Part shown: piece after piece, positions 4,026 to 8,437 of the stretch
Layout of the letters: each line of letters starts with the position of its first letter
Position numbering within the stretch: the first letter of the stretch is position 1
DNA from: Phormidium tenue FACHB-1052
Lineage (GTDB): Bacteria > Cyanobacteriota > Cyanobacteriia > Phormidesmidales > Phormidesmidaceae
Direction of reading: 5' to 3'
Length of the DNA stretch: 64,000 nt
Assembly (NCBI RefSeq): GCF_014696675.1
Contig: NZ_JACJQN010000002.1
Coordinates: 310,001 to 374,000 of the forward strand
The notes under the pieces: model-generated
What the model was told of the DNA's origin: nothing
Databases searched by the model: none
Seen by the model: only the letters and a program-made list of their open reading frames with translations
Made by a program: the position numbers and the translations under genes

Positions 4026-4790
4026 ATGCGGCAAATGCTAACGTTACCTCCATGGAGTTCCATCCTTCCCACCATGGCCGCTGGCTTAAACCCCTCAACG
4101 GTTGAGCTGTTAAAGCGCTTCAACCGAGCTTTCCCCCAGTTTTATGAGCAGTTTGTCAGCAGCGAGATTCAGCTGCAAAACTTGCGCTTGGCCTATCAGC
4201 TCTACAAGCAGCGCAAGGCTGTGCTCGACATTAAGCCCGAGGGCAACAAAAGCGCGCTGCACTTTGTCTATCGCAACCAGTCATTTTTGCTGAGCGATAT
4301 TTTTGGGGTGCTGGCGGCCTACGGGCTGACCATTCACAATCTCAGTCTCTATGGGCAGATCTACCCACCTATGCTGGTGTTTATTAAGTTAGTCGTGTCG
4401 CGGGGGGGCAAAGCCCTCAGCCCTAAGACGACTGACAATGTCTGCCGCGCTATTCAAGAAACTCTGGCAGGGCATTTTGAAGTAGAAGAAATGCTGACAG
4501 TGGAGTTTAACCTCAACGCTGGGCTTGAACGGGTAGAGACAGAATTTTATGTGGATCCGGTTTTTCATCTGCCGGCGCTATTGATTGAAGCCGATAACCA
4601 GCCAGGACTTTTTTACAAGGTGATGTACGCCATCTGGCAAGAAGATTTGCTGGTGGTCAACGCTAACTTACTGGTGTGGCGGGGGCGTACCCGACTCATT
4701 CTTTACTTACTTGGGCCTAACGAGAGCCTGATTCCAGACTACTTGGGGCAAAAAATTGCTGAGGGCATGCGCTACCGCCTAATGAGCTAG
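4026..4790 (+). CDS. conserved cyanobacterial protein with tandem ACT-like domains
   Basis: A 254-residue protein; the ATG at 4074 (MAAGLNPSTVELL) is a likely alternative start. Two segments look like ACT domains of the GlnD type: SFLLSDIFGVLAAYGLTIHN in the middle and NQPGLFYKVMYAIWQEDL near the end, each with the strand-helix-strand pattern that binds small ligands, often amino acids. No catalytic domain is attached. It lies 40 bp upstream of the hydrolase gene on the same strand and may be co-transcribed. Specific ligand and role are unknown. Confidence 0.6.
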   Translation: MRQMLTLPPWSSILPTMAAGLNPSTVELLKRFNRAFPQFYEQFVSSEIQLQNLRLAYQLYKQRKAVLDIKPEGNKSALHFVYRNQSFLLSDIFGVLAAYGLTIHNLSLYGQIYPPMLVFIKLVVSRGGKALSPKTTDNVCRAIQETLAGHFEVEEMLTVEFNLNAGLERVETEFYVDPVFHLPALLIEADNQPGLFYKVMYAIWQEDLLVVNANLLVWRGRTRLILYLLGPNESLIPDYLGQKIAEGMRYRLMS

Positions 4791-4830: not shown

Positions 4831-5739
4831 ATGGCCATCACCACAGTCCTTGGTGTACCCCACTACTACCACCTCACCAACGAGGGTAAAGCCCCGCCTC
4901 TAGTTTTTATTCATGGCTGGTTGCTCAGCCATCGGTATTGGCAACCGCTAATTGATGGGCTGAGTATCGATTACTCCTGCCTGGCCTACGACCTGCGGGG
5001 ATTTGGCGAATCTCGCCACGACCTTGAGCATTACGATCCAGGCATTCCTGCCGCTGCCCAAAGTTGGGGAGCGTCGGCATCGCCCTACGGCTTGGGAGCC
5101 TATGCCCGTGACTTGGCGGCGCTGCTAGAGCAGCTCAACCTGGGTCCGGTGTGGCTAGTGGGCCATTCTCTTGGCGGTAGCGTGGCGCTGTGGATGGCCC
5201 ACTGCTACCCTCATCTGGTGCAGGGAGTGGTCTGTCTAAATGCGGGCGGTGGTCTTTATCTAGACCGAGAGTTCCAGCAGTTTCGCCAGGCGGGGCAGTA
5301 CATTGTGGGCTGGCGACGACCTTGGTTAGGTCGGTTGCCGCTGTTGCCTCTACTGCTCACTCGCATGATGGTGCACCAGCCGTTGGCCTACCACTGGGGC
5401 CGCGATCGCTGCCTCGACCTGCTCCAGGCAGACCCCGCCGCCGCCCTGGGCACCCTATTAGAATCAACCACCGAAGCCGAAGTGCACCTGCTGCCCCGGC
5501 TAGTGGCCACGCTTAAGCAGCCGGTGTACTTTATTGCGGGCCGTCAAGACCAGGTGATGAATCTGCGCTACGTGCATCACCTCGCGGGCTATCTCCAGGG
5601 CGCTCATCAGGGAAAACTCCCTGTCATTGAGATTGAAAACTGTGGCCATTTGGCTATGCTAGAGCAGCCTCAAATGGTCGCCCAAGCTCTGCAAAGTATT
5701 CTCAAAAATTCCTTGCTTCAGACTCAAACGAGCCGATAG
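4831..5739 (+). CDS. alpha/beta-hydrolase fold protein
   Basis: A 302-residue cytoplasmic protein with the full alpha/beta-hydrolase signature: oxyanion HGW after strand 3, the nucleophile elbow GHSLGG with Ser113, an acid residue in FIAGRQDQV and the catalytic His in ENCGHLAMLEQP. A lid region with several Leu-Pro repeats (RLPLLPLLLTRMM) separates core halves. The substrate is not predictable; the family includes esterases, lactonases and haloperoxidase-like enzymes. No signal peptide is seen. Confidence 0.8.
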   Translation: MAITTVLGVPHYYHLTNEGKAPPLVFIHGWLLSHRYWQPLIDGLSIDYSCLAYDLRGFGESRHDLEHYDPGIPAAAQSWGASASPYGLGAYARDLAALLEQLNLGPVWLVGHSLGGSVALWMAHCYPHLVQGVVCLNAGGGLYLDREFQQFRQAGQYIVGWRRPWLGRLPLLPLLLTRMMVHQPLAYHWGRDRCLDLLQADPAAALGTLLESTTEAEVHLLPRLVATLKQPVYFIAGRQDQVMNLRYVHHLAGYLQGAHQGKLPVIEIENCGHLAMLEQPQMVAQALQSILKNSLLQTQTSR

Positions 5740-5820
5740 CACTGGGAGAAGTGGTCGGTTTTGCCAGGATCAGCGTGAAACGATTTGCATGAGCCACGAC
5801 AGTTTTTAAAGCTTAGATAC

Positions 5821-5888
5821 AAAACAAAAGAGATGCCGACGACTGGCCGTGTTTCGTCTCGGCATCTCTTCTGGTTCGCTCCTCACAC
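5821..5888 (-). ncRNA. putative small RNA carrying an anti-Yfr1 sequence (possibly Yfr2-like)
   Basis: A ~68-nt minus-strand transcription unit can be read from the DNA. A consensus-like promoter predicts transcription starting near 5888. The RNA would begin GUGUGAGGAGCGAACC, then fold into a hairpin (12 perfect pairs, 5828-5839 with 5859-5870, extended by three pairs past a bulge) followed by UUUUGUUUUG, a typical Rho-independent end. The first 10 bases are the exact complement of CUCCUCACAC, the unpaired core of the conserved cyanobacterial sRNA Yfr1. From memory, the Yfr2 family carries such a complementary motif; membership here is inference. No open reading frame fits the unit. Confidence 0.6.
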
Positions 5889-5894
5889 ATTCAT

Positions 5895-5923
5895 ACTATA
5901 GGCTCATCTTAGGGAAATGTCAC
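5895..5923 (-). promoter_or_regulatory. sigma70-type promoter of the small RNA
   Basis: Read on the minus strand: -35 GTGACA (5918-5923), a spacer of exactly 17 bp, and -10 TATAGT (5895-5900). Five of six bases match the consensus in each hexamer. Start of transcription is expected about seven bases downstream, near 5888. Confidence 0.65.
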
Positions 5924-6440
5924 CCCCCAAAACCCAGATAAACGAACAGTTTTTCTTATAGGAATTTCCGAAGTAAAGCTACTTAGTGGGCGATCGCCTT
6001 ATCACGCGACCTATTAGCTGGCTACAGAGCTTTAGAGAGATAGCAAACTGAGCTCAACTGGCTAAGCTGTCTAATAATAAAGATTAAAGGAAAGGATCCA
6101 AAGAATGTCGCCGATTAGCTAAAGGCGCTACGGGAAATTACGGGATCTCTGTATTAGTATTGGATGGTTTACGTAACCTTCACGATGACAAATTTACAAG
6201 AGTCTGAAACAAGTCAGGTTTGCTGCTGCCGTAGGACTGTTTGAACTGGAGGAAGCGTTTAAATCCGAAAACCCATGCCCGTTGTGACGAGGTCAGTCGA
6301 AGCGGCTGACAACCCGCCTGTCCCCAATGGAGTGGTAGTCTACCCAGTGAGTGCTGCTGACATTACTCACTCGTCCTGAGCGATCGCACCTACCCCTTGC
6401 CCCATGGTCACGGTCTGTACCGTTTAGCCCAGCTATTGCT
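5924..6440. other. long intergenic region upstream of the Crp/Fnr gene
   Basis: No conventional gene is seen. The region is AT-richer than its surroundings, holds one HIP1-like site near 5991, and contains a 32-codon open stretch (6189-6287) with protein-like composition but no normal start codon (see findings). It presumably contains the promoter of the Crp/Fnr-type gene. Confidence 0.5.
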
Positions 6441-7175
6441 ATGCAATCATCTCCTCGCTCCGACAATGCCCGACCGTTCTTGACCTGGCAGCGCATTACC
6501 GACTGGGCCCATGCCCACTATAGGGCTAGAACTTTTAACAAAGACGAGCGCATTCCCGCTCGGTCTGGGCTGCTATATCTGGTTGAGCGGGGCTCCGTGC
6601 GCCTGGTAGGCAGCGCCCAGGGGGCAGAGGCGGCCCCCGAGTTGGCTGACCCAGAACTAGATGAATCCGGCGATGACGACACCTCTAACGGATTAGCGGT
6701 CGGGCTAAGTGAAGAGGCATTTTTAGGATTTGTCGGAGCCGGTCAGCCCTTTGAGATTGTGGCTCAGTCGCCCTTTCTACTACAGAGCTTTGCCCACGTC
6801 GATCAAACCACCGTAATCTGGCTATATTGGAGCGATCTCGAAAATTGGCCCCACTTTCGGCGTGAGGTCCTCGACGCCTTTCGCTACCAGCACCAGCGCA
6901 AGCTGCTGTGGTTGAGTACCCTAGGCCAGCGGCGCACGATTGATCGCCTGCTCGGCTTTCTCACCCTGCTAATCGAAGAATTTGGCGAGCCCTACGAGTC
7001 TGGCTACTACCTGCCCTGGTCCCTCACCCACGCCCAGATTGGCAGCGCCATTGGGTCCACTCGGGTAACAGTGACCCGTCTGATGGGCAAGCTGCGCCAG
7101 CGCAAGCTGATTCACATTCACAAAGATGGCTTGATTGCGATTCCGGGCGACCCAGCAGCAGTCCGGGAGGCATAG
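6441..7175 (+). CDS. Crp/Fnr family transcriptional regulator (NtcA-like HTH)
   Basis: A 244-residue regulator starting at MQSSPRSDNARPF; a GTG 30 codons upstream gives an unconvincing extension. The N-terminal part matches a cyclic-nucleotide-binding-type beta barrel (LLYLVERGSVRLVG), interrupted by an acidic insert (AELADPELDESGDDD) at about residues 60-85. The C-terminal winged helix LTHAQIGSAIGSTRVTVTRL is very close to the recognition helix of the nitrogen regulator NtcA. The acidic insert and different sensor core argue that it is a paralogue rather than NtcA. Ligand is unknown. It converges on rbcR. Confidence 0.75.
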   Translation: MQSSPRSDNARPFLTWQRITDWAHAHYRARTFNKDERIPARSGLLYLVERGSVRLVGSAQGAEAAPELADPELDESGDDDTSNGLAVGLSEEAFLGFVGAGQPFEIVAQSPFLLQSFAHVDQTTVIWLYWSDLENWPHFRREVLDAFRYQHQRKLLWLSTLGQRRTIDRLLGFLTLLIEEFGEPYESGYYLPWSLTHAQIGSAIGSTRVTVTRLMGKLRQRKLIHIHKDGLIAIPGDPAAVREA

Positions 7176-7201: not shown

Positions 7202-8224
7202 CTAAGGGCTGAGGTTAAGCGGTTCTGGCGGTGGAGCGGTGGGCTTGGCACCGTTCTTGTCGGCCCCAGATTTCTCCGCGCCTATGGGTTTAAAGTTTAG
7301 GGGTAGGTTGGTGAACTGGGGCAAAATCTCGGCGGTAAAAGCGGCGGCGGCCTTAGAACGATAGCGGTTGGGGTTGAAGATGACTGACAGGGTGCGGTTG
7401 ACCACCACTGAATCGATCTTAGCCCGGTGCAAAACCCCCATCTGCAACTCTTTCTCGATCGCCGAGTTAGACACAAAAGCCACTCCCAACCCTGACTGCA
7501 CAGCAGTTTTAATCGCCTCAATGGAGTTGAGCTCCATCTCGATTTTGAGACGGCGGGTTTCGATGCCGCAGCGGGTCAGCACCTGGTCGATCACCTTACG
7601 AATGGTCGACTGCGAATCAAGGGCGATGAAGTGTAGCTTGTAGAGGTCTTCCCGCTGAATTACCGCCTGACTGGCCAGCGGATGATACATCGGCATGATC
7701 AGTGCGAGTTCATCCTCGGCGTAGGGCACTCTTTCTAAAGAGTCCTGTAGTTCGGGAGGCAGTTCGCCACCGATGATTGCCAGGTCAACCTGACCGTTGG
7801 CCACACTCCAGGCGGTGCGGCGGGTGGAGTGCACATGCAGCTGCACCGCCACATCGGCGTACTTTTGGCGAAACAGGCCAATCATGCGGGGTAGCAAGTA
7901 AGTGCCGGTAGTTTGGCTGGCACCGATGATCAAGGTGCCCCCCTGCAGGTTTTGCAGATCCTCAATGGCGCGGCAGGTCTCTTGACACAAGCTCAGGATG
8001 CGATCGCCGTAGCTCAGCAGCAAATGCCCGGCCTCAGTGAGCTGCGCCCGTCGTCCACCCCGATCAAACAGCGGCACATCTAGCTGGCGCTCTAGGTTTT
8101 GCACCTGAAGGCTGACCGCTGGCTGAGACACGTATAAGCTGTCTGCCGCTCGTTTGAAGCTGCCCTCCGCTGCAATAGCTTTGAGAATACGCAGCTGATC
8201 GAGGGTAAAGGGAAGGTCAGACAT
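7202..8224 (-). CDS. rbcR: LysR-type regulator RbcR (Ycf30 family)
   Basis: A 340-residue LysR regulator starting [17 protein letters not shown], the start conserved in cyanobacterial RbcR and plastid Ycf30; 14 further upstream codons are not conserved. The N-terminal winged helix-turn-helix includes [20 protein letters not shown], followed by a linker helix and a periplasmic-binding-like effector domain. The family controls RuBisCO and carbon-metabolism genes in response to carbon metabolites. The Lys/Pro/Ala-rich C-terminal tail (last ~35 residues) is variable. No target operon lies in the window. Confidence 0.85.
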
Positions 8225-8437
8225 GGGCATTAACCCTAACGTACGATAATCCTGGGCTGCCAACAAACCATGATAGTAATACAGGCTACTCCCCGTGGTG
8301 CCACCGCACCACCCCTGGGTAAACTAATGACCCAAGCCCATGCCTTTTAAGGCCGGTGCTAAATTAAGTCTGCCATCCCTAGATTACTTGGTTCGGGACA
8401 CTCAACACCAAAATTTAGAGCGAGACCCTAAGGATTT

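Follow-up and report, generated by a model that had tools for sequence, protein, structure and literature searches.

Does the minus-strand unit between positions 5923 and 5821 of the window (by which we mean the whole 64-kb stretch of DNA analysed) belong to the Yfr2 group of small cyanobacterial RNAs, or is it a distinct sponge for Yfr1? The first-pass annotation left both options open, on the grounds of a promoter-like site, a hairpin with a U-rich tail and a 5′ end complementary to the Yfr1 core.

The RNA unit and its promoter-like site

The promoter-like site (5895..5923, minus strand) consists of a −35 box, GTGACA (5923-5918), a 17-bp spacer and a −10 box, TATAGT (5900-5895), as originally annotated. 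By itself it is weak evidence, since shuffles of the promoter region contain on average 0.7 such sites; GTGACA or ATGACA with a TATA-type −10 box is found in 19 aligned upstream regions of the genus. Upstream of the promoter, a conserved box, ATAAGAAA..CTGTT (5944..5959, minus strand), occurs in 19 out of 19 aligned genus sequences and is possibly a regulator or UP site.

The putative Yfr2 (Cyano-1) sRNA covers 5821..5888 on the minus strand, about 68 nt, with its start placed from the promoter and its end from the U run. The predicted fold of 5888-5821 (68 nt; −28.1 kcal/mol) comprises a 15-nt unpaired head, an 18-pair stem (5825..5873; 5873-5856 with 5843-5825, with a bulged G at 5840), a 12-nt loop, GAAACACGGCCA (5844..5855), and the UUUU run (5821..5824) that ends a terminator-like hairpin. 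This agrees with the length, hairpin and U tail proposed initially; the hairpin itself stands, with a stem of 18 pairs in place of the 12 bp first given. An RNA extended to 5815 would, in its best fold, have some of its head paired. The hairpin does not appear in the list of a terminator scan that accepts loops of 3-8 only.

The head starts with the unpaired motif GUGUGAGGAG (5879..5888), the complement of the Yfr1 core CUCCUCACAC; GAAC (5874..5877) provides four extra predicted pairs with GUUC of Yfr1, past one C/A mismatch. At the DNA level, GTGTGAGGAG at 5888-5879 is the sole exact copy of this 10-mer within the window, but at least one copy is present in 14 of 100 window shuffles, so that the 10-mer alone is weak evidence, within chance. 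The minus-strand unit as a whole does exceed chance, on the basis of its match with the Cyano-1 family of Rfam.

Membership of the Yfr2 family

Rfam model RF01701 (Cyano-1) matches 5892-5823 at 45.9 bits, above its gathering score of 41 (E 9.4e-5 for the 64-kb window). In the covariance-model check that the first-pass annotation had proposed, it is the sole family matched at the locus: within 5700-6100, no other Rfam match appeared at E up to 1. A search of the whole genome with RF01701 returned this one match. The Cyano-1 motif is described as marking Yfr2 RNAs (PMC8400943), for which a characteristic anatomy is reported: the first 8-13 nt stay single-stranded, and a long stem, bulged at −4, is capped by a 12-nt loop (PMC2662882).

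The window RNA shares this anatomy. It has the short, unpaired and conserved 5′ end GUGUGAGGAG (from the fold; the head is exact in 25 out of 25 genus copies), the long, terminator-like stem with the conserved 12-nt loop, and a bulge four bases from that loop (G 5840); a promoter-like site precedes it, and it is predicted to pair with the Yfr1 of its own genome over 10 contiguous pairs plus four. The multi-copy state, usual but not defining for Yfr2, is lacking: one match exists here, and likewise one in 32 out of 34 family genomes. While Yfr2 genes are described as multi-copy and at unconserved loci (PMC6778093), in this genus there is a single copy per genome at a locus kept within the genus; a single Yfr2 is also reported for Thermosynechococcus (PMC2662882). 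In comparison with the Rfam consensus line of Cyano-1, the loop of the window RNA ends in GGCCA where the consensus has GGAAA.

The partner RNA, Yfr1 (RF01116), is encoded in this genome too, with its core intact. Its hallmark is a ACUCCUCACAC core flanked by two hairpins (PMC2190773), an arrangement absent from the window RNA, which bears the opposite strand of the motif; RF01116 matches elsewhere in the genome. An identity of the window RNA with Yfr1 or Yfr10 was ruled out, as it carries the complement of their motif.

The minus-strand feature is, therefore, a genuine and ordinary Yfr2-family (Cyano-1) orthologue: it scores above the gathering cut-off, has the Yfr2 anatomy and has homologues across the class. 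The first of the two options is supported, and a separate class of sponge is not needed, since a sponge mechanism has already been published for relatives. A literature search on Yfr2 and Nodosilinea returned no report.

Pairing with Yfr1

The genome's own Yfr1 is located at G000:C1:358429-358496 (44.7 bits against a cut-off of 38), upstream of an ORF which we take to be thioredoxin-like. In its predicted fold, UCACUCCUCACACCACACU is single-stranded between two hairpins. A Yfr1 lacking the core in this genome would have contradicted the first-pass annotation; the core CUCCUCACAC is intact. The ten-base complementarity noticed at the outset recurs in the predicted duplex of the Yfr2 head with this Yfr1 (−24.7 kcal/mol), made up of ten contiguous pairs, the C/A mismatch and four further pairs. 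Shuffled heads reached a mean of −9.7 kcal/mol with Yfr1, and none out of 2000 was as low as −24.7.

These energies also bear on the idea that the GAGGAG head is a decoy for the ribosome (an anti-Shine-Dalgarno decoy) rather than for Yfr1. GAGGAG does resemble a ribosome-binding site, and the same sequence is found ahead of start codons, but the predicted duplex of the head with the 16S tail amounts to −11.0 kcal/mol, near the shuffled-head mean and far from the Yfr1 duplex. We consider a ribosome decoy very improbable, and Yfr1 the probable partner of the head.

The Yfr1 core is exact in all 70 genomes fetched, and the Yfr2 head (one copy each) in 53 out of 67, with GUG(A/G)GGA retained in 66; in one copy (L013, in G034) the head is interrupted. 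We sought compensatory changes between Yfr1 and Yfr2 and found none, the Yfr1 core being invariant in 70 out of 70 genomes. Because the search models score these same bases, the conserved motifs show compatibility of the two RNAs, not independent coevolution.

For the Prochlorococcus RNAs, assayed in E. coli, Yfr2 is reported to bind Yfr1 and to lift repression of a porin-leader reporter; RNase E cleavage of Yfr2 was abolished once Yfr1 was bound (PMC6778093). In Nostoc, gel shifts with Yfr1 and Yfr2 and a higher Yfr2 level under nitrogen deprivation are reported, and sequestration is proposed (PMC6974561).

Conservation and genomic neighbourhood

For the genus counts, the genus was taken as Nodosilinea, although some matching records bear other names; its genomes share identical 260-base stretches with records including N. 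nodulosa PCC 7104 and Nodosilinea sp. FACHB-131. Exactly one Cyano-1 match was found in 25 of 26 genus genomes and in seven of eight other genomes of the family. The family genomes lacking a match are two assemblies, G021 (660 contigs) and G031 (1840 contigs). Among 57 genomes (the own genome and its relatives), 53 have a Cyano-1 match at E up to 1, which exceeds the cut-off in 38; Yfr1 exceeds its cut-off in 54 of the 57. Five of the seven Cyano-1 matches from the same family outside the genus score below the Rfam cut-off.

The loop is identical in the 25 genus copies read, and the head is exact in these 25 (copies located via the loop). We scored the constancy of ten-base blocks over 45 loci that share their first 20 bases (29 distinct 260-base rows), a selection by which the head is constant: it amounts to 97-98% in the loop, 89-90% in the stem and 38-70% outside the transcript, where the peak is the promoter region. 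For covariation, near-duplicates were removed and 19 of 35 distinct sequences, of equal length, were retained. In the stem, 96.5% of cells are paired, a figure that benefits from the structure having been derived from the first of these sequences, and 10 of the 18 pairs have changed on both sides. These pairing measures were equalled in none of 500 shuffles, and slid versions reached at most 62%. Further pair types in the stem (17, against a shuffle mean of 17.9) do not rise above shuffles, and one stem pair fails in 7 of the 19 sequences.

So strongly conserved a loop would suit an RNA that acts mainly by direct regulation of messengers through the loop (and the head), with Yfr1 binding as a secondary matter; indeed, it is suggested for Yfr2 that the loop may reach further targets (PMC6778093). 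We deem this primary role rather unlikely, however: the head fits Yfr1 exactly, and Yfr2 undoes the repression exerted by Yfr1 (PMC6778093). Sequestration of Yfr1 is the reading that we retain.

The RNA gene is preceded on the plus strand by a convergent hydrolase gene (4831-5739), whose stop codon lies about 80 bases before the RNA unit. On its other side are a Crp/Fnr-type regulator gene (6351-7175, plus strand; the nearest NCBIfam model, PtrA, scores 86 bits, its cut-off being 300) and, adjacent to it, a LysR-type regulator gene (7202-8266, minus strand), presumably RbcR-like. The order hydrolase (+), Yfr2 RNA (−), Crp-type regulator (+), LysR-type regulator (−) is kept, whole or in part, in 20 of the 21 same-genus loci compared, the exception (L040) being a stretch of only 1807 bases. 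The same order occurs, again whole or in part, in 16 of 22 named loci; the six other named loci and nine loci of other families are without these neighbours. Also in this region, the plus strand (4026-4790) encodes a 254-amino-acid protein without a Pfam match, in which a weak 20-bit stretch resembles PII uridylyltransferase and which is 89-100% identical across the genus loci holding it; a tRNA gene (Rfam, 69.5 bits) is located at 2551-2624 on the minus strand.

Lying about 80 bases beyond the stop codon of the hydrolase gene, the unit might be mistaken for a mere terminator of that convergent gene, or for an untranscribed relic. The U run, however, comes after the stem only when the minus strand is read; the promoter-like site, the constant head and loop and the stem covariation all belong to the minus strand, and loci outside the genus have the same RNA without such neighbours. 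We regard this explanation as scarcely credible, and the unit as an sRNA gene in its own right.

Co-occurrence of Yfr1 and Yfr2

We searched 386 genomes of the phylum with a completeness of at least 95%, 190 of them in the class of the window (by kinship labels; both searches agree). Of the 190 class genomes, 186 have a Cyano-1 match and 185 a Yfr1 match at E up to 0.1; 181 have both, and no genome lacks both. Outside the class, weak matches occur in two (Cyano-1) and three (Yfr1) of 196 genomes, never in the same genome. In all 386 phylum genomes, 163 (Cyano-1) and 180 (Yfr1) pass the cut-offs. This near-constant co-occurrence in the class fits the view that the two RNAs act jointly.

The four class genomes without Cyano-1, the only class negatives among those listed, all belong to one family (f23). 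A true absence from that family was considered and rejected as a filter effect: in a laxer search, three of the four do match, at E 0.001-0.004 (32-33 bits, short of the cut-off), and in the fourth, G428, one copy (L292) shows the Yfr2 fold. At two places, G428 also harbours a palindromic element with GTGTGAGGAGGCGC and its complement (L283, L285, L289 and L290), which looks like a small mobile element bearing the motif together with its complement.

Four of the five class genomes without Yfr1, of 1.7-1.8 Mb, have, apparently between genes, a CUCCUCACAC flanked by one arm of the GGACA type and one of the UGUCC or UAUCC type. These units resemble Yfr10, which is reported for a Prochlorococcus without Yfr1 (PMC6778093). 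The arms are visible by eye, yet among the best folds of 38 nt, only one of the four has its core in the loop of a hairpin. In the fifth genome, G135, which has Yfr2, no Yfr1 match better than E 1.03 was found, and the four exact cores outside its Yfr2 genes are not sRNA-like by eye. Conversely, the complete genome G045, which comes from the other genome sample, has Yfr1 and yields no Cyano-1 match at E up to 10, nor a Yfr2-like copy among its four exact 10-mers.

Porin genes with the same ten bases

The exact 10-mer occurs eight times in the genome: in the Yfr2 gene, in the complement of Yfr1 and at six other sites, three of which precede an ATG by 8-10 bases. Two of these three belong to tandem genes (L008 and L009; G000:C9:66022 and 67895) whose ribosome-binding regions are exact Yfr1 complements and whose products match the model of the SomB iron-uptake porin (318.4 and 332.5 bits; cut-off 100) as well as Pfam OprB. 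The third precedes the gene for a small protein of the Phage_holin_4_2 family. The predicted duplexes with Yfr1 amount to −23.0 and −24.0 kcal/mol for the porin sites and to −18.7 for the third site. In Prochlorococcus, two porins are reported as Yfr1 targets (PMC6778093, PMC6974561).

In the 26 genus genomes, GTGTGAGGAG followed by 4-12 bases and ATG has 83 matches, against five for the reversed pattern; over 57 genomes, the 10-mer before ATG has 152 matches, against 12. This enrichment is not proof of targeting by Yfr1, because GAGGAG is itself like a ribosome-binding site, which the reversed pattern is not, and because the matches include Yfr2 itself and the antisense strand of Yfr1 genes. 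We checked 40 of the 83 matches, picked for resemblance to the porin sites (the other 43 were not all read). All 40 match the porin of the own genome, one being that porin itself, and two, at the ends of contigs, aligning across just 14 and 23 residues. A porin match with the exact 10-mer at its start site exists in 26 out of 26 genus genomes, in 25 of them at E below 1e-5 (BLAST). Since in all 26 a SomB-type porin gene has these ten bases as its ribosome-binding region, the Yfr2 head resembles a copied Yfr1 target site.

At four loci (L315, L316, L323 and L310), the 10-mer stands before the start of another gene that recurs, with the product MPSIKSALDLLRETSRTFF or similar, presumably squalene/phytoene-synthase-like; it is a possible Yfr1 target.

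A putative second RNA of the Yfr1 type

At G000:C9:94187, RF01116 matches weakly (20 bits), and this led to a second unit, a putative Yfr1-like RNA gene at G000:C9:94184-94238 (L329; L003:1498-1552) with the core CUCCUCAACAC. It consists of AUCGUUCACUCCUCAACAC followed by a terminator-like hairpin, with conserved boxes upstream (TGTCAC, TTG(A/T)CAT and mostly GTGACA). At this locus, Rfam yields no family at gathering score. We built a search model from eight sequences and searched 388 class genomes: matches of 54-86 bits were obtained in 20 of 21 genus genomes, and the matches that come next do not exceed 37 bits. All 20 share one and the same head, while the hairpins vary in sequence yet still fold. 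Three of the weaker matches were read; two of them (L345 and L353) are Yfr1 itself. The third, L344 (G029:C852:2820-2873, minus strand), from the same family, is a further Yfr1-like unit in which CACUUCUCACACC precedes a terminator-like hairpin; the proper Yfr1 of G029 is on a different contig.

RNAs that repeat the Yfr1 motif, including Yfr10, are described as an informal kind (PMC6778093). The Yfr1-like RNA of the genus belongs to the same informal kind by likeness, but its core has one extra A (CUCCUCAACAC) and is located in the free 5′ end rather than in a loop. For a duplex of this RNA with the window RNA, −20.8 kcal/mol is predicted; with its changed core, it could also pair with Yfr2.

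A single Yfr2 in a simple system

We observed at this locus family membership, structure and conservation, together with a Yfr1 with an intact core in the same genome. The single Yfr2-family sRNA gene found in the genome probably serves to sequester Yfr1 from its messenger targets, with the SomB porin pair among the genes released. A sigma-70-type promoter would give a short RNA with an unpaired 5′ end; that end would pair with the single-stranded Yfr1 core, and Yfr1 would be drawn off its messenger targets. The two porin genes, whose ribosome-binding regions contain the same ten bases as the Yfr2 head, would be among the genes so released; for this genome, we infer both sequestration and release from sequence. 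As the predicted affinity of Yfr1 is about equal for Yfr2 and for the porin sites, sequestration would depend on the relative amounts of these RNAs.

Sequestration of Yfr1 by Yfr2 is already published for Prochlorococcus and proposed for Nostoc. What appears to be new here is the match between the ribosome-binding regions of SomB-type porin genes and the Yfr2 head, as well as the putative second, Yfr1-like RNA gene. More tentatively, and with somewhat less than even confidence, we suggest that the one single-copy Yfr2 of Nodosilinea may antagonise both Yfr1 and the genus-specific Yfr1-like RNA, these two differing in their affinity for Yfr2 and in their targets, with the Yfr2 head maintained as an exact copy of the SomB porin pair's ribosome-binding region.

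The published Yfr1–Yfr2 pair is now placed in Nodosilinea, in a simple system, where a single Yfr2 and a single Yfr1 are joined by one putative Yfr1-like RNA and by porin genes that have exact target sites.
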